Of a stretch of DNA of 64,000 nt, positions 2,563 through 40,628 are shown one piece after another. The notes beneath the pieces are model-generated. The model worked only from the letters and a program-made list of their open reading frames with translations, had not been told where the DNA came from and ran no database searches. The stretch comes from a virus, in IMG/VR virus record IMGVR_UViG_3300006076_000002, positions 28,859 through 92,858 of that record; one strand, 5' to 3'. The position numbers were made by a program, and so were the translations under genes. The stretch's first letter is position 1, and the number at the start of each line of letters is the position of its first letter.

Positions 2563-2564
2563 CT

Positions 2565-3077: not shown

Positions 3078-3089
3078 AGGAAATGTGAT

Positions 3090-9350: not shown

Positions 9351-9424
9351 GTACCATTAAGCTCAAAGGTAGAGCTCATTTCCTTTTAAGATTTGGGTTA
9401 CTGGTTCGACTCCAGTATGGTACT
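9351..9424 (+). tRNA. tRNA-Lys(UUU)-like gene, anticodon stem imperfect
   Basis: Acceptor stem GTACCAT/ATGGTAC pairs over 7 bp. D-arm AGCTC-AAAGGTA-GAGCT carries the GG pair. The anticodon loop is CTTTTAA (anticodon TTT, Lys). T-arm ACTGG-TTCGACT-CCAGT is perfect. Total length is 73 plus discriminator, with no encoded CCA. The weak point is the anticodon stem ATTTC/GATTT with two T-T mismatches, so it may be a decayed tRNA or one tolerant of U-U pairs. It lies in the long non-coding gap after the exonuclease remnant. Confidence 0.6.
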
Positions 9425-15453: not shown

Positions 15454-15455
15454 CA

Positions 15456-16481
15456 ATGAAACATATAATCACACTTAACCCTCAAACAGACACATCTCTA
15501 TTTGGGCAATCAGACGGAGGTGTATTCCTTCGTACTGACAAAGTACAACATAGAATACTAAAAGACCTATGGGACAAATCTAACGCTTTATTCTGGACTG
15601 TAAACATGGTTGATTTCTCTAAGGACTCAATTGAACACATACCAGAAATTGGTCAACGAATGTTTAAACTAAACAACGGCTATCAATCTTTAATGGATTC
15701 AGGCGTAGTTGGTATTTATAATCACTTAGCTTTATTAACTACTTCCAACGAAGTAGCTTTATCTTATCAGCAGATAGCATTTATGGAAACAATTCATGCA
15801 ACTAGCTATTCTGATGGCTTATTGCAAATGTTTAATGAAAAAGCTACAGAGATAATTGATATAGTATATACAGATAAAGTAGTACAAAATAGATTATCTT
15901 CGGAGATAGACTATTCCGATAAAGTAATTATTGATCCAAGCAAGCATAACATAGCTTTATCAATAGCTGCGACATATTTGCTAGAATCTATTAAGTTCCC
16001 ATTCAGCTTCTTTGTAACCTTTTCTATTAATAAAGCTTACAGTAATTGCATCAATGGCTTCTCTCAGCTAATTTCACGAATAGCTACTGACGAATTGGAA
16101 ATCCATGTACCAACTAATAAGTACATTCTCAAACAACTGATAAAAGAAGGTGCGATACAGAAGCAGGAAATCTTAACTATGGCTAATACTATCCTAGAAC
16201 AAGAGCTTAACTGGAATCAGTACCTACAGCAAGATGGCCCAATACCTGGGTACAATAAAGAGATAGGTACACAGTTTATTAAGTACATGCACAATAAGTC
16301 TGTACGTGATCTAGGTGTAGATATAGATGTAATAAAACCAAACGATACTGTTCAATGGTTCAATCATGTAAGAAACCCAGACAACAAGCAAGTATCTCAA
16401 CAAGAACAAAAGTCAACGCAATACCAGAAAGGTGTTATGAAGGATAACTTATTCTTATTAGACAAGGCTGATAATGACTGA
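15456..16481 (+). CDS. nrdB: Ribonucleoside-diphosphate reductase class Ia, beta subunit
   Basis: 341 aa, the radical-bearing subunit. By alignment with E. coli NrdB the ligands are Asp81 (YQSLMDS), Glu111 and His114 (METIHATSY), radical Tyr118 and Glu177 (LLESIKF). The last pair is odd. E. coli has R-D-E-x-x-H; here it is TDELEIH (Glu213, His217), so His lies four residues after Glu instead of three. The enzyme may tolerate this, use a different ligand geometry, or be altered. Three bases separate it from nrdA; its end overlaps the next small gene. Confidence 0.92.
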   Translation: MKHIITLNPQTDTSLFGQSDGGVFLRTDKVQHRILKDLWDKSNALFWTVNMVDFSKDSIEHIPEIGQRMFKLNNGYQSLMDSGVVGIYNHLALLTTSNEVALSYQQIAFMETIHATSYSDGLLQMFNEKATEIIDIVYTDKVVQNRLSSEIDYSDKVIIDPSKHNIALSIAATYLLESIKFPFSFFVTFSINKAYSNCINGFSQLISRIATDELEIHVPTNKYILKQLIKEGAIQKQEILTMANTILEQELNWNQYLQQDGPIPGYNKEIGTQFIKYMHNKSVRDLGVDIDVIKPNDTVQWFNHVRNPDNKQVSQQEQKSTQYQKGVMKDNLFLLDKADND

Positions 16482-22400: not shown

Positions 22401-23679
22401 TCATTGCTGCTTCACTACCGTACTTATCCTTGATAGCCATCAACTTGTATATCGTTTTAACCGTCTCTTCTTCTACATTCTTACCCTTAGCACCTTTAAA
22501 CTTATGCACCACTTTAGCTAGAAAGTCAGCTATCATATGCACTACCTTATCATATGCACTTTTATATTCTTTCTCTTTCTTCTCTGTAGTTATACTTTCT
22601 AGTGCATTCTTCATCTGTTTATTCGTCATAGCATATGCCATAAACTCCTGCAATCTTACAGATGCTGCTCTAGTATCTTCTTTACCTTTTCTACCGAAGA
22701 TGTAATCATATCTATCTTTAGCAGCATCTTTCTCCGCTTCCGTATACAACCCATCCTTAACTAAATGTTCTGGTTTCAGAGTCTCTCTAGCCTTCTTATA
22801 CAGCTCTTGTATCTGTAACTTCAGTGCATCTGCTTCTGTACCTGCATGTTTATTGTCAAACACCCAATCCAATGCTGCATGTACTACTTCATGTACCAGT
22901 GTCTCCTCATTTGTCATAGTTAACCTATTTCTAGCTTCTTGACTTAATGTACCTGTCTTTATTTTTATCGGAGCTAGTGGGTCATTCTTATCAAACTGTC
23001 CGTAAGGCTCTACCACTTTAGCTATCTGTTCTGTATTCAGCTTAACTACTGTCTTACCCAGATCCTTACTCAGCTTCATCACATTGCTCAATACTTCATC
23101 TAAATGCTTCCCATGTTCACTGTCATACTCTTCACCCATCAGACTTTTATCTAGTCTTCTAAGCTCGTCTCTTACATTCAGTATCGTATTTTCTGTACTC
23201 TCTTCACCAAGAAACAGTCTATCTATATCCTCATCTGTGAGTTCATCTTTGTTGTACAGCACATCATTCACGTACCCTCGTTTAATTACCTCTGTAACCC
23301 CTGGCATCTCCACCACTGTTCCATTAGCTTTCGTAGCTATACTTTTCTCACTACCCCTCTCAAACGTGTACTGGTGATTGTTATCTAGCACAACTGTAGT
23401 CTTACCTGCTCTAGGCTTGTATATGACTTTCTTTATACCTAGTTTCTTACTCTCTCCACTCTTCAGTGGGTCCTTGTTGCTGTAGTGTACCCAGACATCC
23501 TTTGGCATGTTATCCTGTAGATATTTCTCTGTAGCCTTTTTACGTGACTGCCAGTATACCTTCTCAGCTGTAATCTGCTTAGTGAGAGCTTCTACTTCTC
23601 TCTCTAGCTCATCACCTTTATACTTACCTTCTAACTCTTCTCTTACTTTAGCTTCTATGCTTCTTGTATCACATGCCAT
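19459..23679 (-). CDS. Giant virion protein with HExxH metallopeptidase motif (1406 aa)
   Basis: Directly follows the virion RNA polymerase gene (TAATG overlap), so it is almost certainly a co-expressed, probably ejected internal virion protein. Residues 260-275 read LVHEVVHAALDW: HEVVH (His263, Glu264, His267) is a zincin-type metal site, and acidic residues follow (AGTEADALK). The rest is long, charged and helical, as in phage internal proteins that line or cross the cell wall. I see one cysteine only, at residue 3. Whether the peptidase is active, for example on the wall or in self-processing, is unknown. Its 3' end overlaps a rightward gene. Confidence 0.75.
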   Translation of the reverse strand: MACDTRSIEAKVREELEGKYKGDELEREVEALTKQITAEKVYWQSRKKATEKYLQDNMPKDVWVHYSNKDPLKSGESKKLGIKKVIYKPRAGKTTVVLDNNHQYTFERGSEKSIATKANGTVVEMPGVTEVIKRGYVNDVLYNKDELTDEDIDRLFLGEESTENTILNVRDELRRLDKSLMGEEYDSEHGKHLDEVLSNVMKLSKDLGKTVVKLNTEQIAKVVEPYGQFDKNDPLAPIKIKTGTLSQEARNRLTMTNEETLVHEVVHAALDWVFDNKHAGTEADALKLQIQELYKKARETLKPEHLVKDGLYTEAEKDAAKDRYDYIFGRKGKEDTRAASVRLQEFMAYAMTNKQMKNALESITTEKKEKEYKSAYDKVVHMIADFLAKVVHKFKGAKGKNVEEETVKTIYKLMAIKDKYGSEAAMRRGKHADEKVSDTLNKVLDEVDKKISGRVDDLLQNTLGVTKQGMTQQEFDDLYNPIKHNWPKDSDNILVKFIKLARILPKFKAAIQGADEYQRPHLAILWGNYLSAMKIAEDSFLRKLFADFTAGRKTLELVTDLTMEFRSHIDRLRHQNYEGTLVDVYKTMFKKVDLLKKENKKYDHALEAVIMSADLQALDAESAYGLKGYITNPGKDIKELEAKIAKQGSDFWYKAITKDAHKAAQYAVTGVGLRTNAENIVRGFGTHIEMKPYWETEVDEKLVKDVDKLISLYALTHIDDKAKDTMLELLEKDPDGVMAYTEYAKGLQVAVKEEYDKYEPQSYVKGQVRDTYNRNRELQIAPVSEKKKMNELGFTLVEVLDRDLKDADPVQYGKYVNSNLQVAGRVDGSVGLQREKVQGLLLRDKIRMSNPGLTEDAVWKLYIRSRSALVQKYMDGENIGNMHPVFNDQGYITDFRYGISKKDKIRYLELDTRGAEVLAKSEGHVGTQPMTDKENQKVLRILYKDYADSYIKSNDPTKDTSRLFIHVRAKDFDLSEETRREMYKNGNKELLDKGKYGIKTEGEELWGLLPPDARDNIIKHNIEVDKAKIREDAKKPGTEVYKRIHDTDKRYRMTMEEQLKSVDDNPRREIYIRKDLIAQLFGYQEPSITDMKIFNKVDVGTKYKVQVVESYWKDFIGLLKGNVVVRLPSTIWNNILSNMRILFYSGVPVRQAITLMIKSIRSLDTWKKDEEELHRLQRLVKGASGSKKANLERNISDVQYKLDNNPLRPLMAKGLYQSVIDDVAIYDDTNKISKKLRGLSEKVTGDEGLARDAVETLFLTQRSAAGKFLLRATRESDFHFRAAMYWAKMEKGENEEDVFRFVTDSFINYSKVINSKTVRWLERMGPEAFWTYFANIQRVNIKMLKESPARVAASKLEQAVLGDESDIFDSNLFSVFWNRINPFHGLGSLLNGGTEIPLVEAIHRGL
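19488..19505. terminator. Hairpin at the convergence of the two gene arms
   Basis: Perfect 6-bp GC-rich stem GTGGGA/TCCCAC with loop TTTCTG, starting on the last base of the rightward arm's final stop codon and lying inside the 3' coding end of the leftward 1406-aa gene. No T-run on either side, so if it ends transcription it is not a standard intrinsic terminator. Its position between converging units is the main argument. Confidence 0.35.
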
Positions 23680-26600
23680 TAGTCACACTCCAACTGATCT
23701 AGTATTTTATTTGCTATTATATCCATTTCTGGGTTAGTCTCTGCTTTAACCTCTTGCAAAGGTCTATTAGCTAACGGAGTATCAACCACCTCGTCGGGCT
23801 CAACACTATGATTTTCGTACACCAATTCTTTTGGTAATTTACTCTTATCTAGTTTATTCTTAGGCACTTTAGGTACGTATTCCTCTTTACCTTCAGCTCT
23901 ATACTCAGCACCATCTAATGCACTGTGTCCTACACTGAAGTCAGTCTCAAACAGCACTTTACGACCTTCTTCAGCTCTTTTCTGTAATTGTTCCATCTCT
24001 TTCACTGTACTTCTCATTGTAGGTAGATGTGTTATATCTCTCATTCTACCAACACTCATCATAGCTATCCTAGCATTATCACTCATATCCATTTCACTGA
24101 CTGTATTCAGGTACTCGTTGTAAGCATCGCTCAAATCACCATCAAGCTTACTCAGGAATGTTTTAACCGCAGCTAACACTTCATTTTGATTCTTACCTAT
24201 CTCAACTACTAATTCTTTCTGTTCTGCGTATGACAACCCGTCTAATGCTGTAGGTGCTTCACCTTGTATCATATCGTATATGTCACTTACCGGATTCGTA
24301 AGCATCTTTCTAACTACATTCAGTACAGACTCCATAGCCGTATCATCTTCTACTTTCTGTATGACTTCTTTATCTACACCATTCAACGTAGCATACAAGC
24401 TATCTAGCATCTCTGTAGTTAAACTCCAATCCTTGCTCAAATGATATGCAGACTTGTTGTAAGACTTAGTTACACCCATAGCTTTATCTACTGTAGCGAA
24501 GTTTGCATCATGCACTCCTAATGCTTCCCACTTAGCTAGCACTTCAGCTTGTATCGAAGCATCCTGTGCGTGTATCGGCATTACCGCTCCACTAGTAAAC
24601 GCAACTACCATCTTGTACAACTCACTGTTAGCTCTCAGCTTATCACCGTTAGCTCTCTCTATCTTACCCTGGAGGTTTATAGCAGTGTTCATAGTACCTT
24701 CTGTCCAATCACCTTTAGCAGTCTTGAACAGCACCATTTGATCCCCATTACCATTGTCTAATGCCATATTTATAATCGGTAAGATAACCTTATTAGCTTT
24801 GAGTATAGCATCCACTTCTTTAGTAGTTAACGGTACCCATTTACTTTTATGTTTACCCTCATTCTTCTTTTTAGTTTCTATATCTATTTGTTTATTCACT
24901 TCTTCTAATGCAATCTTACCTATCAACGCAATCGTACTATTCGTAGTTCTAGTAGCCTTAATCAATTCTCCATACTGTTCTTCAAATGTATCTCTAATCG
25001 GTTTACCAACCACTCTAGCTACATGCTCTTGTACCATCTCGTAGAAGTTATCCGGTATCTTCATGTTAAGCACATTCATCGGTGTTTTATCTAACTCTGC
25101 CCTCAACTTACCTAACCATGCATCTACAGCTTCACTTTGCTTATCGTAGTACATTTTCTTACCTGTAGACGGATCTACCATCAAATACGAAGATGCTTTT
25201 AATGCTCTCTTCATCAGGTCAAATGCACCCTCTACTTCACTTACTTTCTTAGATGTTGCCATCGTAGTCATTAACGCATTCAAGTTACTTTTAGAGGGAT
25301 ATGGTGTACCACTAGTAGATAATGCTCTCTTAGCTATACTATTGATAATACCTTTCATACCTGAACCGTAGTTAAGTACCATGAACGGATGTTTCATGAA
25401 TGCTCTAGATATTTCTTCTATCAGATGTTCTTCACCATCACGTGTACCTTCTCCAAGTAACTCCATAGCTACTTCCATACCTTGGAGTATACCTTTAGCT
25501 CTTTTCTCTATCTCTGCTTGCGTACCTTTAACTAAAGCTGGGTGTGGAACCGGTTTTCCTATGAAACTTGGTACCGGATCTACAAACTTTAATTCCGCTA
25601 ACCCTTTACTGTTATCGAGTACTACTCCTTTAATTTCACCCTTCACATTTATATTTACTTTTTTAGCGTTTTCCACTTTCTGCCTAAATAATTCAGCAGG
25701 TTCTTGGTATGCATCTCTCTTAGTCTTATCATCAGCTATTTCTGAATACTTTGGCACGTGTCCATCTTTTACTCTCATGAATCCACCACGCTCTAATTCT
25801 TCAAACGTTTTCTTCATGTCAAGTTTACCACCCTTCACGAATATTGGCATCTGTAGCATCTTGAGTATGTAACCGCTAGTTACTGCATCCGTCTCTAACA
25901 TGATCGTAGACATATATGCTTCATCACTAGCACTTTCTTTATGGTTCATGTACTTGAGTATTTCTATCATACCTTTTATACCATGCTCATCATGCACACC
26001 TAGCACATCCACTAACTCTTTCAGATCGTCATTTGTAATATCTTGTATTGTAGGTATCTTAGCATCACCAAACACTCCATTAACTTTAGCTTCTAACCCT
26101 GCATACTGTTTTATAGATTTACCCATAGGTAACTTATCTACATCAACACCTAGTGCTTGCCCGATAGCTAACTTTAATATCTTCTCTTCTGTACTACCTA
26201 GTTTAACTTCAGCTTTACCCATGTCTGTAGCAAATCTATGCAATAGTATTGATTGATGGTCAAATTTACCACCTATGATACCAAATCTAAAGTTTGTAAG
26301 TATTCTCCACTTCTGCCAGAATGGTTTCTTACCTTTATCTGTAGCTTCATACACTTCATCTAGTAGTTTCTTCTGTCTATCTATAGCGTCATTCTTACCT
26401 TTAGCACCTTCTCTTTCATTCACATATATCGTATCTGGGTCTACTTTACCTAATATCTTATCTAGCAGTGAGTATGGTACATCTTCTCCGTTCTCATCAT
26501 ATCCTGTAGTGTCTGCAATTCCATCTAGCTTATCTAACCCTGTCATGAAATCTTCACCGATAGTCAATCTTGTATCACTCTGCTTCTTAACTGCTTTAAC

Positions 26601-29600
26601 TCTAGGTTCCGACACTGAGAACAACTTAGACACACTTTGGTGTTCAGTAGGCGTATCCTCCATCTCATGCTTGTTATCTTCTGTGTATATACCCAATGAA
26701 TCCTCAGTAGGTTCTAATACCTTTTCTAAGTCTGTAGTCATACCTTTATGTGCTTTAATCAGATCTTTAGCTGTAGTTGTCAAATTGTATGTAACTATAT
26801 CTGGTTTACCTGCATCTTTATCATTCTCATATATCATTGCAGCTGGAGTCTTATACCCTTTCTTAAACACCATTTCTTTCTTAAGTTTTATATCTCTATC
26901 TTTAGCATTTAGTATTATATACTCAGCTTTCTCTAACGCTAACATACCTAGCATACCTAACTCTGCTTTTAGTTTCTGCTCTATATACTCAGTATCTAAC
27001 CCTTCTGGTGCATCCTTTACAGCTTTAAGTCCTAGTGCTTTCCAAGCCTTATTACCTATAGTACTTGACACATAATCCATTATTCCATCAAAGTCTTTGA
27101 TTGACATTCTATCAGTCTGGCTTACCGGAGCATTTTTATCCATACCCTTCAACGCTCTTACTGCATTGTTGTCTCTACGTTCTGAGTCAAACTTAGCCAT
27201 ACTATCTGTCAACACTTCTACTGCGCTTGTTGCCAATGCCTCAGCTACCTTACCGTTTAACTCTAGTTTACCTTTATTAGCGAACTCACCTTCAGGCACT
27301 GTATATGCCATTAGCATTCTACTTACACTTTGGAATCCTTCTACACTATCTGTACCAAACCACACCATGTTAGCTCTTGCAGATGATAAGTCATTCTCTA
27401 CTACACTTTGTACACTTCCTGTCAATTTCTTTATAGTTACACCTGCAGTAAGCAAGTTCTTCTGTGCTACACTTGACAGTGTTTCCTTTTTCTGTGCTAG
27501 TAACTCTCTTAGCACATCTAAAGCTGTAGCATTTAAATTCTTAGGCTCTGTAGCAGCTTTGAAGAACTCGTGTAAGTAACCTTTGCCGTATGCAACATCT
27601 ACACCATTTTTAGCTTCAGTAACGTGATGGGATTTATTGTCAGCAGTCCATGCAAGTATACTACTAGCTACTTTGTTATCTCTTTCAGCTGTTTTATCTA
27701 TCAGTTCAGATTTCTTTTCTTTGATTGCAGCTTTGGTGTCTTTTACCTTATTATTAACCTCTTGCATTTGTAATATACGCTTTATGGTTTTCTTTCTAGT
27801 TTCTGTTAATTTTCGTTCTTTGCCTTGTGTTTGGTCTTTTATGAAATCTTTTTTATATTCAAGCTCATCTTTTTTAGCTACCTTTTTGTCAATAGCCTGT
27901 TGTATACTACTTTCTACTTTTTTGTTGGTAGTTTCAGCTAGTTTATTATACAACGCATCAACACTGCTATCTATGCTTGCTATATAGCTATTTATACGCT
28001 TTATACTAGCATTAGACTTTTCTAACTGTTTAGCTGTCCACATCCTAGTTTGTATGGCATTTCTGAGTATATGTCTTTTAGTATTTTTAAAGTTATACCC
28101 ATCTGTCAGTTTATCTAGTGTGTTCTGTTTCTCGTATACTTCTTTTTCTAGCTCTTTAATTTCAACCTCTAAATTGGCTATTTCTTTATCTATACCTGTT
28201 AGCTCTTCTTGCTTAGGTTTTGTGCTCTCTGTATTGCCTTGTCCAGTACTTTGTTCTGTTCCTGTAGTAGTGCTTTTTTCTTCTGTAACAACTTTAGTTT
28301 CTTCATTTTGTTTTGCATCTATTTTTCCTTTATTTAGTAATCCTAATTTTTTAAGCGCAAATACATTTGCATCTTTTTCATATAATGCAGGATCAGCAGT
28401 ATATTTTTTTCTGAACTCTTCTTTTCCGTATTTGCCTATCTGTTGTGTATGTCGATACTCGTGTAATAACAGAAATTTACGTATATCTTGTGGGCTTAGC
28501 TTACTTATCGTATCTAAGAAGTCTATACTATAGTCTTTATTTATGCTATCTGTAACCTGTTGTTTAGTAAGTATAACCTCTTTAGACTTTTCGTCTTTAA
28601 ACTCTCTATGAGTACTTAAGTAATCTAATACCTTTTTTGCTGTAATGTTCTTACTGAGTCTAATTTTACTACCGTCAGAAGAGGTACCAGCCAACTGTCC
28701 ATTAGAAGCATCTGCCGAGTAGTATCTAATAGGTATACCAGCTACAGTAGCTGTCTGTACATTCGCATTTTTCTCTTTTACTGCACCTTCTACGACAGGT
28801 GCAGCTTCCTCAACCTTTTGCTGCGTAGTTTCAGCTTGTTGTGGCTTACCTACCTCTAGTGTACCGTTGATAGTGTCTGTAGCTAAACTGTTTATGTCTT
28901 GTAGTAACTTGTACTCTTTCTCTAATTTTGCTGTAAACCCTTCAGACTTTTTACCGTCATACACGTACTTACTTCCAGGATAGTTCACATCTACTTTTAG
29001 TTTAGCTAGGTCATTTTTAGCTTTATCTAACCCTGCAGCATCTTTACCTATAGCCTCTAAGTTTTTGATAGTTTCACGTAAGTTATCAGCCTTCTCTTTA
29101 TACACTCTTTGAGCAGCTTTAAATGCATCCCTCTTCTCTGCTTGAGTACTCATAAACTTATTCATAGCTATTATTGCACTATCTCTAGCTGTATCTGATT
29201 GAGCGTTTATGACTGCATCTAGGTGTTCTAGCATCCCTAGTTTTCGCTTACCTTTGTACTCTCCACCAAGCAGCTTTAACGCTAACGATTCATTCTTATT
29301 AGCTTTATCTACTACCGTAACCCCATTAAAGTCTTTACTATGTACCAGATCACTAACCAATTTCTCAGCTTTCAGTTTAGCTAACTCTTTTACCTTTTCA
29401 CTTTTAACAGTTTCATCTGTTATATCAGCTAACTCTGTCTGAACTTCTGCCATATCCTTAGCTATTTCTTTAGGGTCCCTATTCCCTAATATTTCTGATT
29501 CACCATTTAGTTTACGTCTAAGGTTCAGAGCATCTTGCAGATGTTTAGTAACTAACTCTTTTTCAGTTATTATCTCTGGAGTACTGTCTAATGAATCTAA

Positions 29601-31820
29601 TGTTGTTAAATGAGTCATTAAGTCATCTATATTTTTATTTAACCCAGGTTTACCATCTGAACTACCATTCAGTATAACCTTTTTCATAGCATCTTTAACT
29701 TTAACGTTCTTAGGATCATCAACCTTGCTAGCTATACTTTGAAACGTAGGTACATTTGTCATTGCTCTATTAGCGGCATCTCTACTAGCCGCTAGTTCTT
29801 CATCTGTAGTTACCTTGGCTTCTACCGGTTTACTACCTTTAGGTAATTTACTTTTTAAACTATTCACTGCGTTTGATAATTCTGCTACACCTTGAGTTGC
29901 ACCTGCAATGTGTCCACCTGCTAGCCCTTCTATACCAGCCACTTTAGCATCTAATTGATTCTTCTCATTAGCTATTATGCTTTGTAGGTCATCACCTTTC
30001 TTACCAGTATCCCACTGTTTACCTAGTATGTCTGCCCACTGTTGTAAGTACTCTTCAGTACCTTCTACTGCCATACCCTTACCGCCTGCAGCTGCCATCC
30101 TACCTGCTGACTTTAGTACTGAATGCCATAATTTATCAGTTGCTTTCTTACCTAGTACGCTAACTGAGTCTTTCAATGCTACTTTAATCGGTTTAGTGAT
30201 TACCATTGCACTCTCTAACCCTATGTAAGTCTGTAATGCTGCTGATATACTAGCTAATGCAATGTCTTCTCCTCCAGTGTGTTTCTGCCCTTCAGCTTCA
30301 TTTCTAGCTGCTAAGGTATCATTAGCTATTCCAGTGAACATCGCAGTAGCACCGGCTCTCTCTATTCCTTTAGCTAGTACTTTCTGAGCCATGTTTAGCT
30401 TGTTATTAGCAGCAGCAGTCAACTTCTCTGCTTGCACTACCTTACCAGCTTTCATTAACTGTGCAGCTTTCTCATATGCCTTACCTATTTTACTGCCATT
30501 CTTAACTACCATCATGCCAGCTTTTGCTTCACCAGCCCCTATCATGAATGTACCAACGCTACCAACTACGTTACCCACGATGTTACCACTACGCATTGCA
30601 TGCCATGCAGCCATCCCGTAGTTACCTTTCTTTATGTCATCCTCTACTTGTGCTTGTTCTCTTTGTGCTTGATCAGTGTTAACTCCGTATGTTGCATCTG
30701 CCATCTGACCTATGTTCTCGTTCGTGTAGTACTCTTTCGTATCGTTGTACCCATCACCACCTAACCAACTAGCTACTCCATTCATCTTGAAACTGTGGGC
30801 TATGGCATCTTTCTTCTCTGCTTCTAGTTTAGCTCTTTCTTCTTTACTTGTGGCATTAGCTATTTGATGGTCATAGTAAGCTTCTTCTGCTTTACCTATC
30901 AACCAGTCAGGTGCGTCATTAGCTACTGCATCTATTGCCTGACCTATTGTACTAGTAACTGTACTTGCAGTTCCTTTAGCGACCCCTTCTAGGAATCCTT
31001 GATCACCAAATTTAGCTTTGTTTAATGCAGCTAGTAATGCTTCTCCATTATCTACCGGTTGTATTTCACCTTTATTACCGAATGAGTCTTCGTATGCGAA
31101 TCTTCCACCTGTATTAACTTGGTTATCATTATGCATTACCGCATTTATGTCTACCCCTTCTTTATTCGCTAAGTATCCTAGTTCACGTGACATATTCGAT
31201 TTTTGTACACCTTTTACCTTTACTGGTATATTCATGCCATTGCCGCCACTGTAGGCATTTTTACTTAAGTCCGTCCTAGCTCCCGGTATGTATGGTGCTT
31301 CCCAGTCACTATTACCATTTACTATATCAGCTAGTTGCTGTATCTTATTCATGTTAGCTACATCTAGCATGTCTTGCTCAGTAATGTTAGCTGCAGTCTT
31401 GTGTGCATTTGGATTGTTTTGGTTTATTACGTCAGCAACGCCTTGTCTTTGTGCATCCATTGATAGTGCACTTTTACTGTATTTGTATTTTTCTGGTTGG
31501 TTACGCTTTAAGCTGGGTTCTACTCCATACATATCGTATGGACGATTACCGTGTAAGGTCTCTACTGCATCTATTCCAGCAGTTCTGTATGTGGATTCTT
31601 TACCTGTTGTAGGATCGATTGTAGTGAATCCATCACCGTCATCCCCTGTGTATTTGAGTATGGCATCACTGTAAGTACTAAGTCTATCTCCTGATAGTTT
31701 GTTAATCTTATCTTGTGCTCTTTGCTGTAAGTTGTCTACTTTAGTATTAGTTGAATTCGACCCAAATGCTGCTATGTTTTCCGCTATGTTTTCTGCTGGG
31801 TCTTGTAGGTATTGAGGCAT
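23679..31820 (-). CDS. N4-type virion RNA polymerase polyprotein (2713 aa)
   Basis: Single-subunit RNA polymerase motifs are visible: ETDAVTSGY (motif A, Asp1978); RAFMKHPFMVLNYGSG (motif B: Arg2139, Lys2143, Tyr2151, matching T7 RxxxKxxxxxxxYG); MPIHAQDAS and GVHDAN (motif C, His2437-Asp2438); and TNFRFG at 1842, where N4 has TxxGR. Lys-to-Asp spacing of 295 resembles N4 virion RNA polymerase (about 281 as I recall), not T7 (181). N4 packages this enzyme and ejects it to transcribe early genes. Elsewhere the chain holds DGDGF near residue 55 in an SNase-like context, an HEYRH site at 1120-1124 and long coiled coils near 1190-1400. The only cysteine is the penultimate residue. Shorter than N4's 3500 aa. 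Confidence 0.87.
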   Translation of the reverse strand: MPQYLQDPAENIAENIAAFGSNSTNTKVDNLQQRAQDKINKLSGDRLSTYSDAILKYTGDDGDGFTTIDPTTGKESTYRTAGIDAVETLHGNRPYDMYGVEPSLKRNQPEKYKYSKSALSMDAQRQGVADVINQNNPNAHKTAANITEQDMLDVANMNKIQQLADIVNGNSDWEAPYIPGARTDLSKNAYSGGNGMNIPVKVKGVQKSNMSRELGYLANKEGVDINAVMHNDNQVNTGGRFAYEDSFGNKGEIQPVDNGEALLAALNKAKFGDQGFLEGVAKGTASTVTSTIGQAIDAVANDAPDWLIGKAEEAYYDHQIANATSKEERAKLEAEKKDAIAHSFKMNGVASWLGGDGYNDTKEYYTNENIGQMADATYGVNTDQAQREQAQVEDDIKKGNYGMAAWHAMRSGNIVGNVVGSVGTFMIGAGEAKAGMMVVKNGSKIGKAYEKAAQLMKAGKVVQAEKLTAAANNKLNMAQKVLAKGIERAGATAMFTGIANDTLAARNEAEGQKHTGGEDIALASISAALQTYIGLESAMVITKPIKVALKDSVSVLGKKATDKLWHSVLKSAGRMAAAGGKGMAVEGTEEYLQQWADILGKQWDTGKKGDDLQSIIANEKNQLDAKVAGIEGLAGGHIAGATQGVAELSNAVNSLKSKLPKGSKPVEAKVTTDEELAASRDAANRAMTNVPTFQSIASKVDDPKNVKVKDAMKKVILNGSSDGKPGLNKNIDDLMTHLTTLDSLDSTPEIITEKELVTKHLQDALNLRRKLNGESEILGNRDPKEIAKDMAEVQTELADITDETVKSEKVKELAKLKAEKLVSDLVHSKDFNGVTVVDKANKNESLALKLLGGEYKGKRKLGMLEHLDAVINAQSDTARDSAIIAMNKFMSTQAEKRDAFKAAQRVYKEKADNLRETIKNLEAIGKDAAGLDKAKNDLAKLKVDVNYPGSKYVYDGKKSEGFTAKLEKEYKLLQDINSLATDTINGTLEVGKPQQAETTQQKVEEAAPVVEGAVKEKNANVQTATVAGIPIRYYSADASNGQLAGTSSDGSKIRLSKNITAKKVLDYLSTHREFKDEKSKEVILTKQQVTDSINKDYSIDFLDTISKLSPQDIRKFLLLHEYRHTQQIGKYGKEEFRKKYTADPALYEKDANVFALKKLGLLNKGKIDAKQNEETKVVTEEKSTTTGTEQSTGQGNTESTKPKQEELTGIDKEIANLEVEIKELEKEVYEKQNTLDKLTDGYNFKNTKRHILRNAIQTRMWTAKQLEKSNASIKRINSYIASIDSSVDALYNKLAETTNKKVESSIQQAIDKKVAKKDELEYKKDFIKDQTQGKERKLTETRKKTIKRILQMQEVNNKVKDTKAAIKEKKSELIDKTAERDNKVASSILAWTADNKSHHVTEAKNGVDVAYGKGYLHEFFKAATEPKNLNATALDVLRELLAQKKETLSSVAQKNLLTAGVTIKKLTGSVQSVVENDLSSARANMVWFGTDSVEGFQSVSRMLMAYTVPEGEFANKGKLELNGKVAEALATSAVEVLTDSMAKFDSERRDNNAVRALKGMDKNAPVSQTDRMSIKDFDGIMDYVSSTIGNKAWKALGLKAVKDAPEGLDTEYIEQKLKAELGMLGMLALEKAEYIILNAKDRDIKLKKEMVFKKGYKTPAAMIYENDKDAGKPDIVTYNLTTTAKDLIKAHKGMTTDLEKVLEPTEDSLGIYTEDNKHEMEDTPTEHQSVSKLFSVSEPRVKAVKKQSDTRLTIGEDFMTGLDKLDGIADTTGYDENGEDVPYSLLDKILGKVDPDTIYVNEREGAKGKNDAIDRQKKLLDEVYEATDKGKKPFWQKWRILTNFRFGIIGGKFDHQSILLHRFATDMGKAEVKLGSTEEKILKLAIGQALGVDVDKLPMGKSIKQYAGLEAKVNGVFGDAKIPTIQDITNDDLKELVDVLGVHDEHGIKGMIEILKYMNHKESASDEAYMSTIMLETDAVTSGYILKMLQMPIFVKGGKLDMKKTFEELERGGFMRVKDGHVPKYSEIADDKTKRDAYQEPAELFRQKVENAKKVNINVKGEIKGVVLDNSKGLAELKFVDPVPSFIGKPVPHPALVKGTQAEIEKRAKGILQGMEVAMELLGEGTRDGEEHLIEEISRAFMKHPFMVLNYGSGMKGIINSIAKRALSTSGTPYPSKSNLNALMTTMATSKKVSEVEGAFDLMKRALKASSYLMVDPSTGKKMYYDKQSEAVDAWLGKLRAELDKTPMNVLNMKIPDNFYEMVQEHVARVVGKPIRDTFEEQYGELIKATRTTNSTIALIGKIALEEVNKQIDIETKKKNEGKHKSKWVPLTTKEVDAILKANKVILPIINMALDNGNGDQMVLFKTAKGDWTEGTMNTAINLQGKIERANGDKLRANSELYKMVVAFTSGAVMPIHAQDASIQAEVLAKWEALGVHDANFATVDKAMGVTKSYNKSAYHLSKDWSLTTEMLDSLYATLNGVDKEVIQKVEDDTAMESVLNVVRKMLTNPVSDIYDMIQGEAPTALDGLSYAEQKELVVEIGKNQNEVLAAVKTFLSKLDGDLSDAYNEYLNTVSEMDMSDNARIAMMSVGRMRDITHLPTMRSTVKEMEQLQKRAEEGRKVLFETDFSVGHSALDGAEYRAEGKEEYVPKVPKNKLDKSKLPKELVYENHSVEPDEVVDTPLANRPLQEVKAETNPEMDIIANKILDQLECD

Positions 31821-31873: not shown

Positions 31874-33538
31874 TTACTTTAGGTTCTTTCTAGCAGTTGG
31901 ATTTAGCAAGGTGTTAGCAAGGTTTATATTCCTACTTTGCTGCAATGCCTTTATATTACGCAGTTGTTCCGCAGATAATGAACTTTTTGAAGGTTCACGA
32001 TTTATTAACCCATTTAAGAAGTTCTCTACATCTCCCCCATTAGGTATTATATGCTTAGGGTGGGCTTTATCGTACTTTTCCTTAGCTATGTAGAATGATA
32101 AGGTATCAGGATATTCAGTCACCAGCATACCTGGTTTGTAAGGGTTTAAGGCAGATCTGTTTACCTCTTTACTAACTTCCTTACGCTTTTTATTATTATG
32201 GGCAGTATTTACTTTTATTCCTTTAGCTGCTTCATTTAGCCATATGCTATCATTTGCTATTGCTTTATTTACTCGACTTTGTTGTTTACTGCCTAATCCA
32301 CCATACATGCTTGCAAACCCTTCAGGATTATTTACTGCTAGGCTAGCTAATGCGTGATCCCCTTTAGGGCTGTTCAATGCATCTAGTAGTGCATTACTTG
32401 TAGGTGCTTCCTTCTTATGTTGAGTACTACTACTCTGTTTACCCGTACTTGTTGTAATTGACTTACCTAATCTGTCAAGTATCTTGTTGTAATTGTTTCT
32501 ATCAGCTAGTAACTGCCCTAACGACTTTGACGTAACGTAGTTTGGGGTAATCTTAGCTATCTGTTTATCAGTTAATCCTGGTACTGCTGCTTTATTTCTA
32601 CCTGCATAACCGTATTCATTACGTAAGCCATCAACGTACTTTGCAACGTCTTTAGCTATTTTACCATTATTCTGGTATTCGAACTTGTAGTTAGTACCCC
32701 ATGTACCTGGATCTTTTGAGTGTGTGATGTACTCGTATGCTTCTGCAGGTGTGTACCCTTTTATGATTTTTTCTTTACCATTTACTGTTTCAGTTCGTGG
32801 AGATGTTAGTAAGTTGAACAAGGTCTTAGCTTGTTTATCATCGTACTTGATCGGCATGTAATCAGGTGAAGCTTTATTAGTTAACAAATCTAGGTATTTT
32901 TCATTGTCGCCCGGTTTGTGTGCAAATGTATAATGACCACCAGTGGACTTACTACCATCTTTACTATTAGCTATGTTAGCTTTCATTCCCATTTGTACTA
33001 GGAACTGCTCTCTTTTCACTCTTTTATCTTCCGCGTCGTTGTACGCTTTAGTTTGAGCTGCTTCATTAGCTAGTATCTCTTTCTTAGTATCGAATTGTTG
33101 ACTCAGTAACTTTGCAGCATTAGCTGCTTCCTGTGCAGTACCACCAGCAGCAAGCACCTTATTCGATACGTATTGACTAGCTTCACTTTGTGTTGGATTA
33201 TACCCCTGTGTATACGTATCATTAAATACCTGCATCTCTTTAGGCGTAAGTTCGCGTTTACCGTTATTAGTTATTTGGTTATACTTATCAACAACAGCAG
33301 TATTAGTTCGCATTAGTAGGTCTTCTGGTCTTACTGATTGAGCATCGAATCCTTTAGCTAAGTCGGAAACTGCACTTTGCACACCCAACTTTCTCTGACG
33401 GTCTTCTTGCTCATCCTGGAACCGTTTAGCTAGTATCTGGTTCTGGAATGCTTGCTGATTTAATGCAACCTGATCTCGCATTCTTTGACGTGATGCATCT
33501 TGTAAATTGTGGCTTACCTGTAAAAATTCTGATTGCAT
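31874..33538 (-). CDS. Virion-associated protein, 554 aa
   Basis: Unrecognised family. The N-terminus is Gln-rich and coiled-coil (RDQVALNQQAFQNQILAKRF); the rest is hydrophilic, Lys/Asn-rich and helical, without cysteine. Placed between the virion RNA polymerase gene and the 196-aa gene, it is likely an internal or ejected virion protein. RBS AAGGATAGATA. Ends with a Leu/Asn-rich basic tail. Confidence 0.6.
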   Translation of the reverse strand: MQSEFLQVSHNLQDASRQRMRDQVALNQQAFQNQILAKRFQDEQEDRQRKLGVQSAVSDLAKGFDAQSVRPEDLLMRTNTAVVDKYNQITNNGKRELTPKEMQVFNDTYTQGYNPTQSEASQYVSNKVLAAGGTAQEAANAAKLLSQQFDTKKEILANEAAQTKAYNDAEDKRVKREQFLVQMGMKANIANSKDGSKSTGGHYTFAHKPGDNEKYLDLLTNKASPDYMPIKYDDKQAKTLFNLLTSPRTETVNGKEKIIKGYTPAEAYEYITHSKDPGTWGTNYKFEYQNNGKIAKDVAKYVDGLRNEYGYAGRNKAAVPGLTDKQIAKITPNYVTSKSLGQLLADRNNYNKILDRLGKSITTSTGKQSSSTQHKKEAPTSNALLDALNSPKGDHALASLAVNNPEGFASMYGGLGSKQQSRVNKAIANDSIWLNEAAKGIKVNTAHNNKKRKEVSKEVNRSALNPYKPGMLVTEYPDTLSFYIAKEKYDKAHPKHIIPNGGDVENFLNGLINREPSKSSLSAEQLRNIKALQQSRNINLANTLLNPTARKNLK

Positions 33539-33548
33539 TATCTATCCT

Positions 33549-34139
33549 TTATTGTTTCGCATACATCTTAGCAGCTTCAGCATTCGCTTTAGCATAGTTC
33601 TCACCTCTAATTTTTCTATCATTTCTAGAGTCATCATACTTTCTTTTAGCTAGTCCGTAAGTTTTTAACCCTAAGTCATACTGTTTATTAATCTGATCTT
33701 GACGTTGAGCTAGTGTTTTATTATTAGAAGTTATTCCGTATATATCCATACCTACACCGTATAAGCTCTGTAGTCCTTTGAATCCAGCAGAAGTTGTGAA
33801 GTCACCACTAACTTTAATAGGCTCCATTTTACCAGTTTCTGGGTTAAATTTATAACTTGTTTGCTCTTGTGGTTTCCACGCTTTATCCCATTTTTCAGAG
33901 AATCCATCAAATATACCAGAGTTATTTGTAGTAGGTGCAGTTGTAGTAGGTTTAGCAAAGTATCCTACATTTTTATCATTAAATACTAATCCGTTAGCAC
34001 CCATCTTAGCAGCTAGTTCTGGGTACTTTTCTGCAAAAGAGTTAAATTTATTCATATCAATTAATGTAGAACCGTCATAACCTTTACCACTAACTAGTGA
34101 AGAAGCTAATCCACCATTATTTAAAAAATCGTAACCCAT
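33549..34139 (-). CDS. Virion-associated protein, 196 aa
   Basis: Starts MGYDFLNNGGLASSLVSGKG after the RBS AAGGATATAGT. The C-terminal third is a basic, Ala/Lys/Tyr-rich helix (NYAKANAEAAKMYAKQ). No cysteine and no recognised domain. It shares the operon with the 554-aa protein (9-base gap) and follows a late promoter, so a minor structural role is likely. Confidence 0.55.
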   Translation of the reverse strand: MGYDFLNNGGLASSLVSGKGYDGSTLIDMNKFNSFAEKYPELAAKMGANGLVFNDKNVGYFAKPTTTAPTTNNSGIFDGFSEKWDKAWKPQEQTSYKFNPETGKMEPIKVSGDFTTSAGFKGLQSLYGVGMDIYGITSNNKTLAQRQDQINKQYDLGLKTYGLAKRKYDDSRNDRKIRGENYAKANAEAAKMYAKQ

Positions 34140-34182: not shown

Positions 34183-34191
34183 ATTATATCA
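34183..34191 (-). promoter_or_regulatory. Extended -10 late promoter (TGATATAAT)
   Basis: The TGA at its 5' end is the stop codon of the 1190-aa gene, so stop and promoter share bases. It faces the 196-aa and 554-aa genes. Same TGnTATAAT form as the other late promoters. Confidence 0.58.
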
Positions 34192-37100
34192 TAATACTGG
34201 CAATTTTGCATCTGCTGATACTATCGGTACCATTACTTCTCGCATAGTGGAAGATAATAACACAGCAGAAGGTGCTGCTGTATCAGCTTGAGCAGTAACG
34301 CTTGAAGTATATACTAAGTAGTCTGGAGAGAAATTAGCACCTACTAACCATTCAGGGACATTTACAGGGTCGTAGTTTTCATCTTCTAAGGTACTAACTA
34401 ATATATCTCTAAATACTTCTACATATGACTCGTGTACACTATCTTTTTCAACTAATTTATTTAGTTCTTTATTTTTATGTTCTAATACAGCCATTTTAGT
34501 TTTATAGTCAGCATCCATATGTTTCATTTTCTGCTCAGTTTCGTAATCAGATATAGTAGAAGCTATACCTGCTATAGTACCGATGTTTTGTAGTAACGTT
34601 TGTTCAGCAAAGTGATCCACTATTGCTACAGCTATGTCTGATATAGATGCATTCTCAAGCGCAGTCAACAACTCGCTACTAACACCATTACCTATCGCTC
34701 CTGCACCCATGGTAAGTGCTGCGACAATTACCATTCTTAGCATCGGATTCATATCAGGAGCAAGTATGCTCATACCTATACTTATAGCCATACCACCTAC
34801 TAATCCTCCGAGAAATGACCCCAATGTTAATGAAGCCCCACCTGTTTCAGGGGCAGTAAGTATTATGATAGCTATTCCAGCTACTATTAATACAAACCCA
34901 AAGAAACCACTTTGGTACCATTTAATATGTACCACCTTTCTAGAGTAGGTGTACAGAAACAGGTTACTGCTATATAGTACAGTGTATTCCCTAAAAGCTA
35001 ATTCTTTATTTATAATATCAGGGTATACAATCACTAGTTGATCTAACTTGTCTCCACCTTTTATAGTAGTGGTACCCCAACCATTATCAGAACCTACTTG
35101 ACTAGTAGATATAGAGTATACACCGTCATAGGATTGAAATATTCCTGTAATGTTCTTATAAGTATATCTAATAGCTGTACCATCAGCAGCTATAAAATAT
35201 GCATAAAGAACTATAGTGTACAAATTGGTAGTTGTATCTGAATCCCCAATGTTAGTAGTAGTATAGGTACTTGTGTGTTCTTTAGCTATCCTAGCAGCGT
35301 ATTTAGGTCTCTTATTACCATTAGTAGCATATAACTCAGTATACTCGGCTGTAGTAGTAAAATTAGCTATTGTGTCTTTTACTATAGTATAAGAATAGGT
35401 TGCATTCATATTACTAGCATGATACGTAATGGTAGTAGCTGCTCCTTCCACTACTCCAGAACCTGTTAACTTATCCGCTAATTTATACATTACTTTTGCT
35501 CTAGCATTATAAGGATCAACAACTAGTTTTGTAGTATCTATAGTTGCTTCTGCGTCGTTACTACTTTCAAATATTGCTAAACCAACAAATATTGTAGACG
35601 TAAAAGTATCAGGAGACGAAACAGTAGACTCCATCAAACTACTAACACCATCTTCATCCATCCCTAAAGATTTCATTACTCTCAACATTTTTCCGAGTTT
35701 AGGGTCTGGATCTCCATCTTTATATTTATTTATTCCAGCAACTAAAGTAGCTTTTGAGTAATTACTGTCATATTTACTAATAAGATTCTCAAAATCAGGA
35801 TTTTTAGTATCCCATAAGTAGGTGTCTAATTCTTCAAAAGAGCCAACTATACTAGTATTACCGATATCCAGCTGAAAAGATACACTAAGATCTAAATCAG
35901 GCTGATTTTGTATTTGTCGCTCAACATAAGTACCACCTGTCCATCCATCTTCCACTTCCACTAGTTCATACTTAGGTTGAACATAAGTCTTAAGTAAATC
36001 TATAATATACTTTTTAGCCTTAAGCAGAGGAGTGTCTGCATAAACAGCCCAACCATTAGTTTTTAAAGGAATCATAGGAGTAGTATCTTCAATGTCAATA
36101 GTAGTAAGTACACTTTTATCAGCCAACATGTACATAGTACTATCTAACTCTACACTATCCCCTAAGCTATTGGTAACTGTCTTAGTATAGTTTACCGGAA
36201 CCACTTTAGAGGTTAACTCATAAAATGCTGTAGTATTAAATCCCAATCTAGCAACAAGGGTGAAACCGTCCAGTATAACTGCGCCTTTCATAACCGATAA
36301 TGCATTTGGTGATATAACAACACCATCAAAGTCTGATAACCCTGGTCCAGGTATAAGTTTTATTTCCTGCTCGTAGGTTACAAAACTATTATAGATTGTG
36401 GACTCCACAGGTTTTGTATAGTATATTGAATAGTTATTATTAGCGTAATTCCTAAATTGTTCTAAGGCAACCCATCCATGATACTTATCCGTCACAGTTG
36501 GTACTATTAGTTCTGTCTTTACAGGTCTATACTCAATAGGGGAGTTGGTAAGAACACTAATACCTATTCCACAGTTAAGAGGCTCATACTCAGTTACAAC
36601 TGTCGTAGTAACAGTTTTAGTACAAGTATCTACTGTAGTCTCATTACCGTCATCATCCGTCTCTGTTCGAGTACCTGCTGTATATGTAGTTTCCACTGTA
36701 GTGGTAACTATCTCATTCATATCGCCTTCTATAGTGTATTTAGCAGTAATGTCTAAAGTAGTAGATATTGATAAGTTGTTACTTATTGTGACTTGTGCTG
36801 TTTCACTTGTTTCAGGTTTAGTGTAGTATCCTTCATTAAGCGTTTCTACTACATCTGTAGTAACAGTATCTGATTCAGTACATTCTCCATCTTTAGTAGT
36901 CTCTTCAACAGTTACTTCATCTTCTTTACCCTTAGCTTTACCTGTTAAAGCACCTACAAAAACAGCAGTGTTAGCATCTATATTGCTAATTGTAGCATAG
37001 AACCAGTCTATTCCAGATATAGCTTTCAGACCTAACTCAAGAGTTCCAACCTCTATGGTACCTGCTATAGTATCTACTGAGTTAAGCCACCAAAAAGCAT

Positions 37101-37761
37101 TACCGCTAAATCTATCTTTCATAACTGCTAATAAGTCTTTGGGGTGCAAATAACCTTTTAAAGTGTTTATTTGAGTTTTATTATACTCAGTATCAATATA
37201 AATGTCTCTATAAGATAGTTCCTCTTCAGCATTTAAGTATATCTCTCTTACATGCTTTGATGGAGAAATACCGGTTATATTTCTACTGTAAACTGTTGCG
37301 GAATTTGAACTATAGGAAAATCTACAAACTATATCTAAATCATCTATCATATAACCGTCTACTTGTCGCAGGTTACCTACAATAGCTCTAACCTTATCAT
37401 CTACAGTTGTTAGATTGTTTAAAATTTCTGAACCAGATACTGATTTAACTACGATAGAATTGTCATTTAAATCACTTCTTAACTTACTTTGTATTGCAGG
37501 TATGTCAAATTTATATAATGCCATTGTAGAAGTAGTTGCTACTCCTGCTTTCTCTAAATACTTAGGTGAATACTTCTTACGTATTTGTTTGGCCATATAC
37601 CATTTACTTTTAGCATACCCTTCAACACCACCATCCATATAGGCTTTATTTAACCTTAACTTAGACTGTTTCCACAGGTCCTCTGACAGTTTAGGATTCG
37701 TTTTTAATGGCTGTATACCATAACTTTTATATACTTCATTATGACCACTAAACAAACCCAT
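34189..37761 (-). CDS. Large virion (probable tail) protein with hydrophobic segment, 1190 aa
   Basis: Long beta-rich protein (many Thr/Val/Ile strands such as VTVEETTKDGECTESDTVTT) with a hydrophobic stretch near residues 940-1045 containing three membrane-like helices (FFGFVLIVAGIAIIIL, LGGLVGGMAISIGMSIL, MVIVAALTMGAGAIG). A coiled segment follows (KTKMAVLEHKNKELNKLVEK). Such architecture suits a tail or internal protein that inserts into membrane during DNA delivery. No family recognised. It is the third gene downstream of the 403-aa protein block and is read from the same leftward unit. Confidence 0.6.
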   Translation of the reverse strand: MGLFSGHNEVYKSYGIQPLKTNPKLSEDLWKQSKLRLNKAYMDGGVEGYAKSKWYMAKQIRKKYSPKYLEKAGVATTSTMALYKFDIPAIQSKLRSDLNDNSIVVKSVSGSEILNNLTTVDDKVRAIVGNLRQVDGYMIDDLDIVCRFSYSSNSATVYSRNITGISPSKHVREIYLNAEEELSYRDIYIDTEYNKTQINTLKGYLHPKDLLAVMKDRFSGNAFWWLNSVDTIAGTIEVGTLELGLKAISGIDWFYATISNIDANTAVFVGALTGKAKGKEDEVTVEETTKDGECTESDTVTTDVVETLNEGYYTKPETSETAQVTISNNLSISTTLDITAKYTIEGDMNEIVTTTVETTYTAGTRTETDDDGNETTVDTCTKTVTTTVVTEYEPLNCGIGISVLTNSPIEYRPVKTELIVPTVTDKYHGWVALEQFRNYANNNYSIYYTKPVESTIYNSFVTYEQEIKLIPGPGLSDFDGVVISPNALSVMKGAVILDGFTLVARLGFNTTAFYELTSKVVPVNYTKTVTNSLGDSVELDSTMYMLADKSVLTTIDIEDTTPMIPLKTNGWAVYADTPLLKAKKYIIDLLKTYVQPKYELVEVEDGWTGGTYVERQIQNQPDLDLSVSFQLDIGNTSIVGSFEELDTYLWDTKNPDFENLISKYDSNYSKATLVAGINKYKDGDPDPKLGKMLRVMKSLGMDEDGVSSLMESTVSSPDTFTSTIFVGLAIFESSNDAEATIDTTKLVVDPYNARAKVMYKLADKLTGSGVVEGAATTITYHASNMNATYSYTIVKDTIANFTTTAEYTELYATNGNKRPKYAARIAKEHTSTYTTTNIGDSDTTTNLYTIVLYAYFIAADGTAIRYTYKNITGIFQSYDGVYSISTSQVGSDNGWGTTTIKGGDKLDQLVIVYPDIINKELAFREYTVLYSSNLFLYTYSRKVVHIKWYQSGFFGFVLIVAGIAIIILTAPETGGASLTLGSFLGGLVGGMAISIGMSILAPDMNPMLRMVIVAALTMGAGAIGNGVSSELLTALENASISDIAVAIVDHFAEQTLLQNIGTIAGIASTISDYETEQKMKHMDADYKTKMAVLEHKNKELNKLVEKDSVHESYVEVFRDILVSTLEDENYDPVNVPEWLVGANFSPDYLVYTSSVTAQADTAAPSAVLLSSTMREVMVPIVSADAKLPVL

Positions 37762-39623: not shown

Positions 39624-40628
39624 CTAACTTGCATATCTGATGTAGTATCCAGCAGTTCTATACTTGGCAAAACCTAGCTTCTCGTTATCTCTAGCAGCTC
39701 TAGTTACTTTAGATCTATTAGCTCCTATAGCCTCTGCAGCTTTCTTACCACTATCATACCTATCCCAACTCTCTTTATCTTTAGACACTTCAACTGGACG
39801 TTCTAGCCCTTCTGAGTACAGTGTGTTATCTATTGTCATAGCTATGTTTTTAAACTTCTCAGGTAACTCTTCACCTATAGTATTGAGTACTATATACCCT
39901 CTGTATCTATATGGATTAATTGTAACGTCGTAGCCTTTATTCTTATCTAATGTGTCATTTTGTTTAGCAGCTTTGCCTAGCTTACTTGCATTAGCCATAG
40001 TGATACTTAGTTCTTTCTCTATTAGCTCTTTAGCATCTATTAAACGTGGAAAGAACTTCCACTCTTTACCATCTTTAGATACTGCACAGCCCTTATTTCT
40101 ACTATCTTGTAATCCAGTTTCCCATGCGTGTTTTAGATTATCTTCATTACTAATCCACTCTAAGTTTGTATAATGATTATTTAGTTTGTCACCGTCTTTA
40201 TGATTTACTGTAAGTGTTTGATCACCTTCTACAAATGCTCGTGCAACTAGTCTGTGTATATACTCTAATACTTTGTTTCCATCTATACTAGTAATATTTA
40301 CTACTTTGTACCCATTTTTACCAATAATAGGATTTAAGTACTTTAATGTTTTTAACGAGTATACTTCACCATTCTTAGTTATTGTATGGTTAGGGTACCC
40401 TTCAATTGGTTTACCTGGTACAGTCTCAGGAAAGGTTATTTTTATAAGGTATTCTATAGCTCTTCGTACTGAAGTACCATCGATTAGTTTTACATTAGTA
40501 GCTTCTGGACTATTTTTATACTTTACGGTTGAATATTTAGTACCATCATCACGCAGTAAAACGTATGAATTATTTAGTTTTTGGATTTTTAGGTTTTGAT
40601 AACCTGGGGTTTGTCGTGTGTTATTCAC
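39624..40628 (-). CDS. NUMOD4-HNH homing endonuclease, 334 aa
   Basis: GTG start at 40628 after AAGGAG. The NUMOD4-like part (GYPNHTITKNGEVYSLKTLK, near residues 79-98) leads to the HNH core YIHRLVARAFVEG...LTVNHKDGDKLNNHYTNLEW (near 122-161). It ends with helix-turn-helix DNA-binding repeats (DSGKKAAEAIGANRSKVTRA). The extra N-terminal 75 residues are not family-typical. It is inserted directly downstream of the major capsid gene. An RBS-proximal hairpin probably limits its translation. Confidence 0.85.
   Translation of the reverse strand: MNNTRQTPGYQNLKIQKLNNSYVLLRDDGTKYSTVKYKNSPEATNVKLIDGTSVRRAIEYLIKITFPETVPGKPIEGYPNHTITKNGEVYSLKTLKYLNPIIGKNGYKVVNITSIDGNKVLEYIHRLVARAFVEGDQTLTVNHKDGDKLNNHYTNLEWISNEDNLKHAWETGLQDSRNKGCAVSKDGKEWKFFPRLIDAKELIEKELSITMANASKLGKAAKQNDTLDKNKGYDVTINPYRYRGYIVLNTIGEELPEKFKNIAMTIDNTLYSEGLERPVEVSKDKESWDRYDSGKKAAEAIGANRSKVTRAARDNEKLGFAKYRTAGYYIRYAS

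Follow-up and report, generated by a model that had tools for sequence, protein, structure and literature searches.

The virion RNA polymerase (vRNAP) of phage N4, gp50 (PDB 2PO4, 3C2P, 9PNR and 9PNT), is a single chain of 3500 aa. It comprises an N-terminal domain (NTD), a linker (residues 907-1006), the RNA polymerase (RNAP) domain (1007-2101), a second linker (2102-2123), the unit C1 with an HExxH motif (2124-2375) and the unit C2, which extends to residue 3500 (PMC12633501). In the same study, the domains are described as connected by flexible linkers, the C-terminal domain (CTD) is reported to reduce transcription in vitro, and passage of the chain through the tail like beads on a string is proposed. 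How the 380-kDa enzyme passes the narrow tail and is activated is treated there as an open question. Unpublished work cited in PMC4496689 found the CTD to be needed for encapsidation and the NTD for genome injection. N4 itself also has a T7-like single-subunit RNAP divided into two genes, RNAPII (gp15 and gp16; PMC4496689). Unlike the enzyme studied here, RNAPII is made in the infected cell and is not a virion enzyme, and its cut lies inside the polymerase fold. For Shigella phage pSb-1, the vRNAP is annotated in three adjacent ORFs. A two-protein vRNAP occurs in AD45-P1, one of four cultured Alteromonas phages (vB_AmaP_AD45-P1 to P4) with genomes of about 100-104 kb.

The window, which is the whole 64,000-nucleotide stretch of viral DNA analysed, encodes an N4-type vRNAP split into two proteins, one with the NTD and the polymerase (part 1) and one with the CTD (part 2). 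It shares with gp50 a T7-like polymerase domain with all catalytic residues, a homologous CTD, the location beside gp51 and gp52 and a near absence of cysteine, of which N4 gp50 has none. It differs from the one N4 chain in that two to four proteins are found in the window and its relatives, with cysteines flanking each break apart from the exceptions given below. The enzyme belongs to a known family, of which the split form with cysteine-tipped ends is a new variant. No report of cysteines at vRNAP ends, or of a split vRNAP that works, was found in the literature searched, in which subscription papers were thinly covered.

Polymerase and C-terminal domain genes in the window

Part 1 matched PHROG 2206 'virion RNA polymerase' with an E-value of 7e-56, covering only profile positions 687-2001 of 3406 (Table 1). 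A first attempt to search the PDB with the part 1 sequence alone gave no match. With a profile of an alignment of 21 relatives, the N4 mini-vRNAP was matched at E 6e-74 and T7 RNAP at 0.002. A single-subunit RNAP fold was found in the AlphaFold2 model of residues 1400-2595 (pLDDT 73.2, pTM 0.67). The ten best PDB matches in Foldseek were all N4 vRNAP, with a best E-value of 1.8e-25, and were followed by mitochondrial and T7 polymerases. The proposal of the first-pass annotation that this protein holds a single-subunit RNAP of the N4 vRNAP type was thus supported in agreement by PHROG, PDB profile and Foldseek; the outcome named there as refuting, a predicted structure lacking this fold, did not occur.

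Table 1. Positions of the vRNAP genes, their motifs and neighbouring genes in the window.
Feature	Position	Strand	Basis
vRNAP part 2 (C-terminal domain as separate protein), 1406 aa	19459..23679	(-)	PHROG 2206
HEVVH (HExxH), part 2 residues 263-267	22879..22893	(-)	H, E and H invariant, 15 relatives
Codon of C3 (MAC), sole Cys of part 2	23671..23673	(-)	column invariant, 15 relatives
Gene junction TAATG; part 1 stop overlaps part 2 start, different frame	23677..23681	(-)	
vRNAP part 1 (N-terminal domain and single-subunit RNA polymerase domain), 2713 aa	23679..31820	(-)	PHROG 2206
Codon of C2712, sole Cys of part 1, second residue from C-end	23685..23687	(-)	
GGAG, Shine-Dalgarno-like, before part 2	23688..23691	(-)	
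Modelled polymerase domain, residues 1400-2595	24036..27623	(-)	AlphaFold2, Foldseek
Motif C GVHDAN, residues 2435-2440 (D2438)	24501..24518	(-)	alignments
Motif B RAFMKHPFMVLNYG, residues 2139-2152 (R2139, K2143, Y2151)	25365..25406	(-)	alignments
Motif A ETDAVTSG, residues 1976-1983 (D1978)	25872..25895	(-)	alignments
TNFRFG, TxxGR-like site; R1845 invariant	26280..26297	(-)	alignments
Candidate ejection protein, N4 gp51 position, 554 aa, no Cys	31874..33538	(-)	position
Candidate in N4 gp52 position, 196 aa, no Cys	33549..34139	(-)	position only

The motifs A, B and C had been reported in this order, and alignment with N4 and five other single-chain vRNAPs confirmed them. ETDAVTSG aligned on EADGVTNG, RAFMKHPFMVLNYG on RGIAKNPLTITIYG and GVHDAN on KIFDGM. 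Residues R1845, E1976, D1978, R2139, K2143, Y2151 and D2438 were invariant in the alignment of 21 relatives, from which N4 was excluded. As read from the alignments, all catalytic residues of a single-subunit RNAP are present in part 1. At the TxxGR-like site, the Arg had been described as shifted, which was incorrect: the Arg of L-T-N-F-R falls on that of N4 T-R-V-G-R and is in place, and the Thr and Gly are substituted relative to N4. The motif ExDGxxxG, used to screen for vRNAPs in PMC10654107, is absent from part 1, which reads ETDAVTSG; that screen would therefore miss it. Part 1 also contains an HExxH motif, HEYRH (residues 1120-1124, 28449-28463(-)), between NTD and polymerase. It is found neither in part 1 of locus L004 nor in the other split N/polymerase pieces compared.

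The first-pass annotation had treated the 2713-residue protein as shorter than N4's, with different flanking domains. It is not merely a shorter vRNAP; the CTD had been missed and is the next gene, assigned to the same PHROG (E 9e-117, profile positions 2231-3009 and 3048-3404). The model of part 2 residues 1-1200 was weaker (pLDDT 68.9, pTM 0.51), and its sole PDB matches below E 0.001 were two N4 vRNAP entries (7e-13 and 1.3e-12). The modelled structure indicates that part 2 is homologous to N4 vRNAP, with low TM-scores (0.27) and no claim on detailed geometry. A scan of a bacterial genome collection with the CTD alignment gave no relative. Following two helices at the start of part 2, a small beta domain is predicted (residues 61-107, window 23359-23499(-)), which precedes the stretch matching PHROG 2206.

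The one-chain layout of about 3500 aa with NTD, RNAP and CTD is absent from the window. Two genes, each in its own frame, encode RNAP and CTD, and a plain single-chain vRNAP like that of N4 was ruled out by the finding of the CTD in the next gene. The GGAG stands eight bases ahead of the part 2 ATG, and the part 2 frame is closed by a stop codon just upstream of this start. A sequencing frameshift in the window was ruled out as well, as other contigs carry the same split.

Split vRNAP genes in related contigs

The same two genes were found in L004, a 35-kb contig whose CTD is 77% identical to that of the window. Further split loci in viral contigs were L013/L029, L026, L028 (with near-copies L027 and L030), L034, L039-L046 and L048. 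The NTD formed an additional separate protein in ten of them (L028, L029, L034, L039, L040, L041 and L043-L046), and a small separate piece lay between polymerase and CTD in L028 (375 aa) and L042 (364 aa). The 375-aa piece (L028:8516-9643) has the motif HELIH, resembles the N4 C1 unit and has both of its ends marked by a Cys; a separate HELVH is present in the main CTD of L028. Several of the contigs with a split vRNAP were large, from 81 to 118 kb.

The vRNAP of the cultured phage AD45-P1 is also split, with ORFs at positions 94860-102404 and 90623-94882 of its record, and has end cysteines. AD45-P1 to P4 are distant from the window in sequence, have two pieces only and carry the split unrecognised in the record: GenBank flags the AD45-P1 locus only as 'potential frameshift'. 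The CTDs of AD45-P2, P3 and P4 are 99.7-100% identical and bear the same note; the break itself was read in P1 only.

This flag, and PMC10654107, in which the ORFs of AD45-P1 and pSb-1 were noted and joined and miscalling or readthrough was suggested, would suit a full-length single chain made by stop-codon readthrough or frameshifting, or breaks that are sequencing errors. Of the breaks that have a start codon, 28 in number, eight join ORFs in a shared frame, in favour of this explanation. The other 20 are out of frame with varied offsets, a Shine-Dalgarno-like sequence is present at 24 of the 28, and the same split recurs across many records, which makes a single chain or error extremely improbable. 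Readthrough fusion as a general rule was ruled out by frame, and from the frames and the Shine-Dalgarno-like sequences it follows that separate translation is the rule. Error-like breaks exist and carry no end Cys, namely those of L086 and pSb-1. Like the window, pSb-1 has its vRNAP in adjacent ORFs; unlike the window, all three are without Cys, and the second break would lie, by length, inside N4's C1 region. The pSb-1 breaks look like sequence errors.

For the lineage of the window, the best explanation of the gene arrangements is that gene fission at domain linkers made two, three or four proteins of the giant chain. In a CTD tree of 32 rows, the state of the NTD-RNAP break required three changes among 14 scored rows. 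The 16 split rows formed a supported group (SH-aLRT 99) together with L032, a fused sequence on a long branch. A clade of the 16 split CTDs without L032 was nominally rejected by the AU test (p-AU 0.023), so a single origin of the split is not established. L032 may be misplaced or re-fused.

Cysteines at the gene breaks and their possible role

Part 1 has one Cys in 2713 residues and part 2 one in 1406. The other listed genes of the window hold 116 Cys in 14,362 residues, a rate that would give 33 in these 4119 residues. A break-end Cys was defined as one within the last 7 residues upstream or the first 6 downstream. On this definition, Cys was present on both sides at 28 of 29 breaks from 16 distinct records. 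The count excluded duplicates of L028 (L027, L030, L035, L037, L038), of L029 (L013, L036) and of L004 (L011, L012, L033), as well as L024 and L025, with breaks that have no end Cys or are frameshift-like. Break ends held 57 of the 59 Cys in 64,472 residues of the 16 records, the two others being in L034 and L040 (binomial log10 P = -126, with relatedness of the records ignored). Among 146 other genes of the same stretches, Cys occurred in the last 7 residues in 11 and in the first 6 in 5. The one exception of the 29 was the N|polymerase break of L048, which has no start codon nearby and is possibly a frameshift.

The downstream Cys is mostly residue 3 or 4, and the intervening residue after Met varies (A, G, K, S, N, T, R). 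The upstream Cys lies at a varying distance of 1 to 7 from the stop, often in tails with a shared N-K-I-x(n)-C look. Where the NTD-RNAP linker is unbroken (window, L004, L042, AD45), it has no Cys; where NTD and RNAP are split, Cys is found at both ends, L048 excepted. In the 16 fused vRNAPs (54,203 residues), 25 Cys were counted. The divergent L032 accounts for 20 of them and L015 for 3, which lie near the beginning of its open frame; two other proteins have one each, and N4 has none. L014, L019 and L020 were left outside the fused set as incomplete or as a near-copy of pVco-5. The L032 protein (L032:1403-13537) is a fused, CTD-bearing chain of 4044 aa, in which the first RNAP profile matched no polymerase domain.

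The cysteine rule was examined in contigs of a later scan, outside those from which it had been derived; among the 51 loci L059-L109, the 14 that had been counted before or lay on known contigs were passed over. All five adjacent breaks had Cys on both sides (two in L065, one each in L077, L108 and L105). L077 and L108 share their sample of origin and resemble each other at the break, and in L105 only the last 26 residues of the upstream ORF are visible. The CTD of L065 also holds an internal Cys (606). A possible N|polymerase break in L079 and a break within the polymerase domain of L086 were without Cys. A polymerase fused to the CTD occurs in L089-L092 (one protein), L107 and L095. These chains start with MAC, MAC and MSTDAC, respectively, and the gene ahead of them is unrelated and Cys-rich. 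For these, the rule predicts a separate N piece with a lone C-terminal Cys. With PHROG 2206, such a piece was located for both L092 and L107, separated from the polymerase gene by about 5 kb that hold other genes. Each had exactly one Cys, at residue 1514 of 1515 and 1314 of 1316 of the open frame, so that the rule was obeyed in both. The 17-kb record of L095 yielded no N piece.

The Cys codons might be a by-product of nucleotide signals at the junctions, such as ribosome binding sites or translational coupling. Several junctions show an overlap between the TGT codon and the GGATGT of the ribosome site, and TGT is mildly over-used at the ends (53 of 57 vs 90 of 111 in other window genes, p 0.011). 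In L004, L034 and L041, the ribosome site and the upstream Cys are apart, and a lone Cys still closes the N pieces whose genes are about 5 kb away from that of the polymerase, which leaves this origin very improbable.

The pattern of the cysteines makes it fairly probable that disulfides between the paired end cysteines link the pieces of the broken chain end to end again, and this reading is the best explanation of their placement. It is favoured by the way Cys tracks the breaks, absent in the unbroken linker and at both ends when split, with three changes of break state on the tree. It is also favoured by the success of the rule in the later contigs, by the invariance of C3 in 15 C-terminal pieces and by the flexible linkers and inhibitory CTD of N4. 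The candidate genes in gp51 and gp52 position before the vRNAP genes had no Cys in all 25 ORFs checked, which leaves the end cysteines without another partner among those proteins. As far as sequences tell, thiols among the candidate ejected proteins sit only at the vRNAP break ends, with few exceptions. Disulfide coupling is weakened by the breaks without end Cys (L048, L024, L079), by the AU test result and by the slight TGT-richness of the end codons. Phage assembly takes place in the reducing cytoplasm, and thioredoxin and glutaredoxin genes (PF00085, PF00462) were not found in 9 of 10 records, the exception being AD45-P1 with a thioredoxin; both points also weaken the coupling.

Its strongest rival is another thiol role of the end cysteines, in metal binding, lipid or other modification or reaction with a host or virion protein, the pieces meeting non-covalently. 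The evidence on the end cysteines is their sequence, the invariant C3 would fit any thiol function and the shared N-K-I-x(n)-C tails could be a recognition tag. Such a role appears unlikely, as the cysteines stand one per side of each break, are absent in the unbroken linker and are paired even with genes about 5 kb apart; one per end is also few for metal binding. Covalent joining by an enzyme or by protein splicing would equally use paired cysteines at nearly every break. It is quite improbable given that the two window parts had no Pfam intein match and that the downstream Cys is mostly not residue 1.

Under disulfide coupling, the vRNAP pieces would be packaged in the virion, packaging and ejection being inferred from the family. 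The end cysteines of consecutive pieces could then act as head-to-tail couplers, either within the virion or in the course of ejection, with oxidation after lysis or within the capsid. The coupled pieces would be threaded through the tail as one string, in order. The reducing host cytoplasm would break the disulfides and free the polymerase from the CTD, which is inhibitory in N4. Gene fission may in this way have produced a redox-gated delivery device of otherwise Cys-free wagons in fixed order, unhitched in the cytoplasm with release of the polymerase, a proposal that is plausible but tentative. A single Cys per end by itself leaves the pairing order of the pieces unfixed. Should disulfide coupling be demonstrated, the device would be of a new kind. 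The position of the evolutionary cuts, at the domain linkers, is relevant to the view of the chain as beads on a string. If right, the coupling would be a design found in nature by which large proteins are delivered as parts that can come apart, and it would explain genes that are at present written off as frameshifts. A simple chemical coupling is what the paired end cysteines predict, testable in the cultured AD45-P1 and its sisters.

Phage context and neighbouring genes

The assignment of the phage as N4-like in the first-pass annotation held, as the N4 gene order was found. Portal, tape-measure-like protein and terminase genes occur along with the vRNAP in the N4-like structural order. The record of the window, with at least 92,858 bp, lies outside the Schitoviridae genome range of 59-80 kb (PMC7650795). 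A simple scan for the hairpin early promoters predicted in the first-pass annotation (GC-rich stems, 3-nt loop) gave no excess over shuffled sequence, with 1 hit in the left 15 kb vs 0.95 in shuffled sequence and 1 vs 2.9 in the whole 92,858-bp record. For RNAPII, the window's own record had no PF00940 match, and blastp with N4 gp15 and gp16 gave nothing significant. In L056, two adjacent early ORFs (272 and 572 aa; L056:5963-8558) stand in the place of N4 gp15/gp16 without a significant match. The second has the sequence CLHSQDAF, resembling the motif C region. A PhoH-like gene lies at the left end of the same record (L056:3-956(-)).

One window gene, 49419-49763(-), was rejected as a thioredoxin partner. 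It has a CxxC, and its weak match is to the phospholipase A2 family. The 114-aa late protein showed similarity to PF09056 (prokaryotic phospholipase A2) at E 5.5e-06, below the cut-off. The 1190-aa ORF at 34189-37761 had no tblastn match in phages. An HNH endonuclease gene is located within the structural gene cluster (39624-40628(-)). A ribonucleotide reductase large subunit is encoded at 13309-15453(+), followed by a 341-aa ORF (the pair spans 13309-16481), and a tRNA-Lys at 9351-9424(+).
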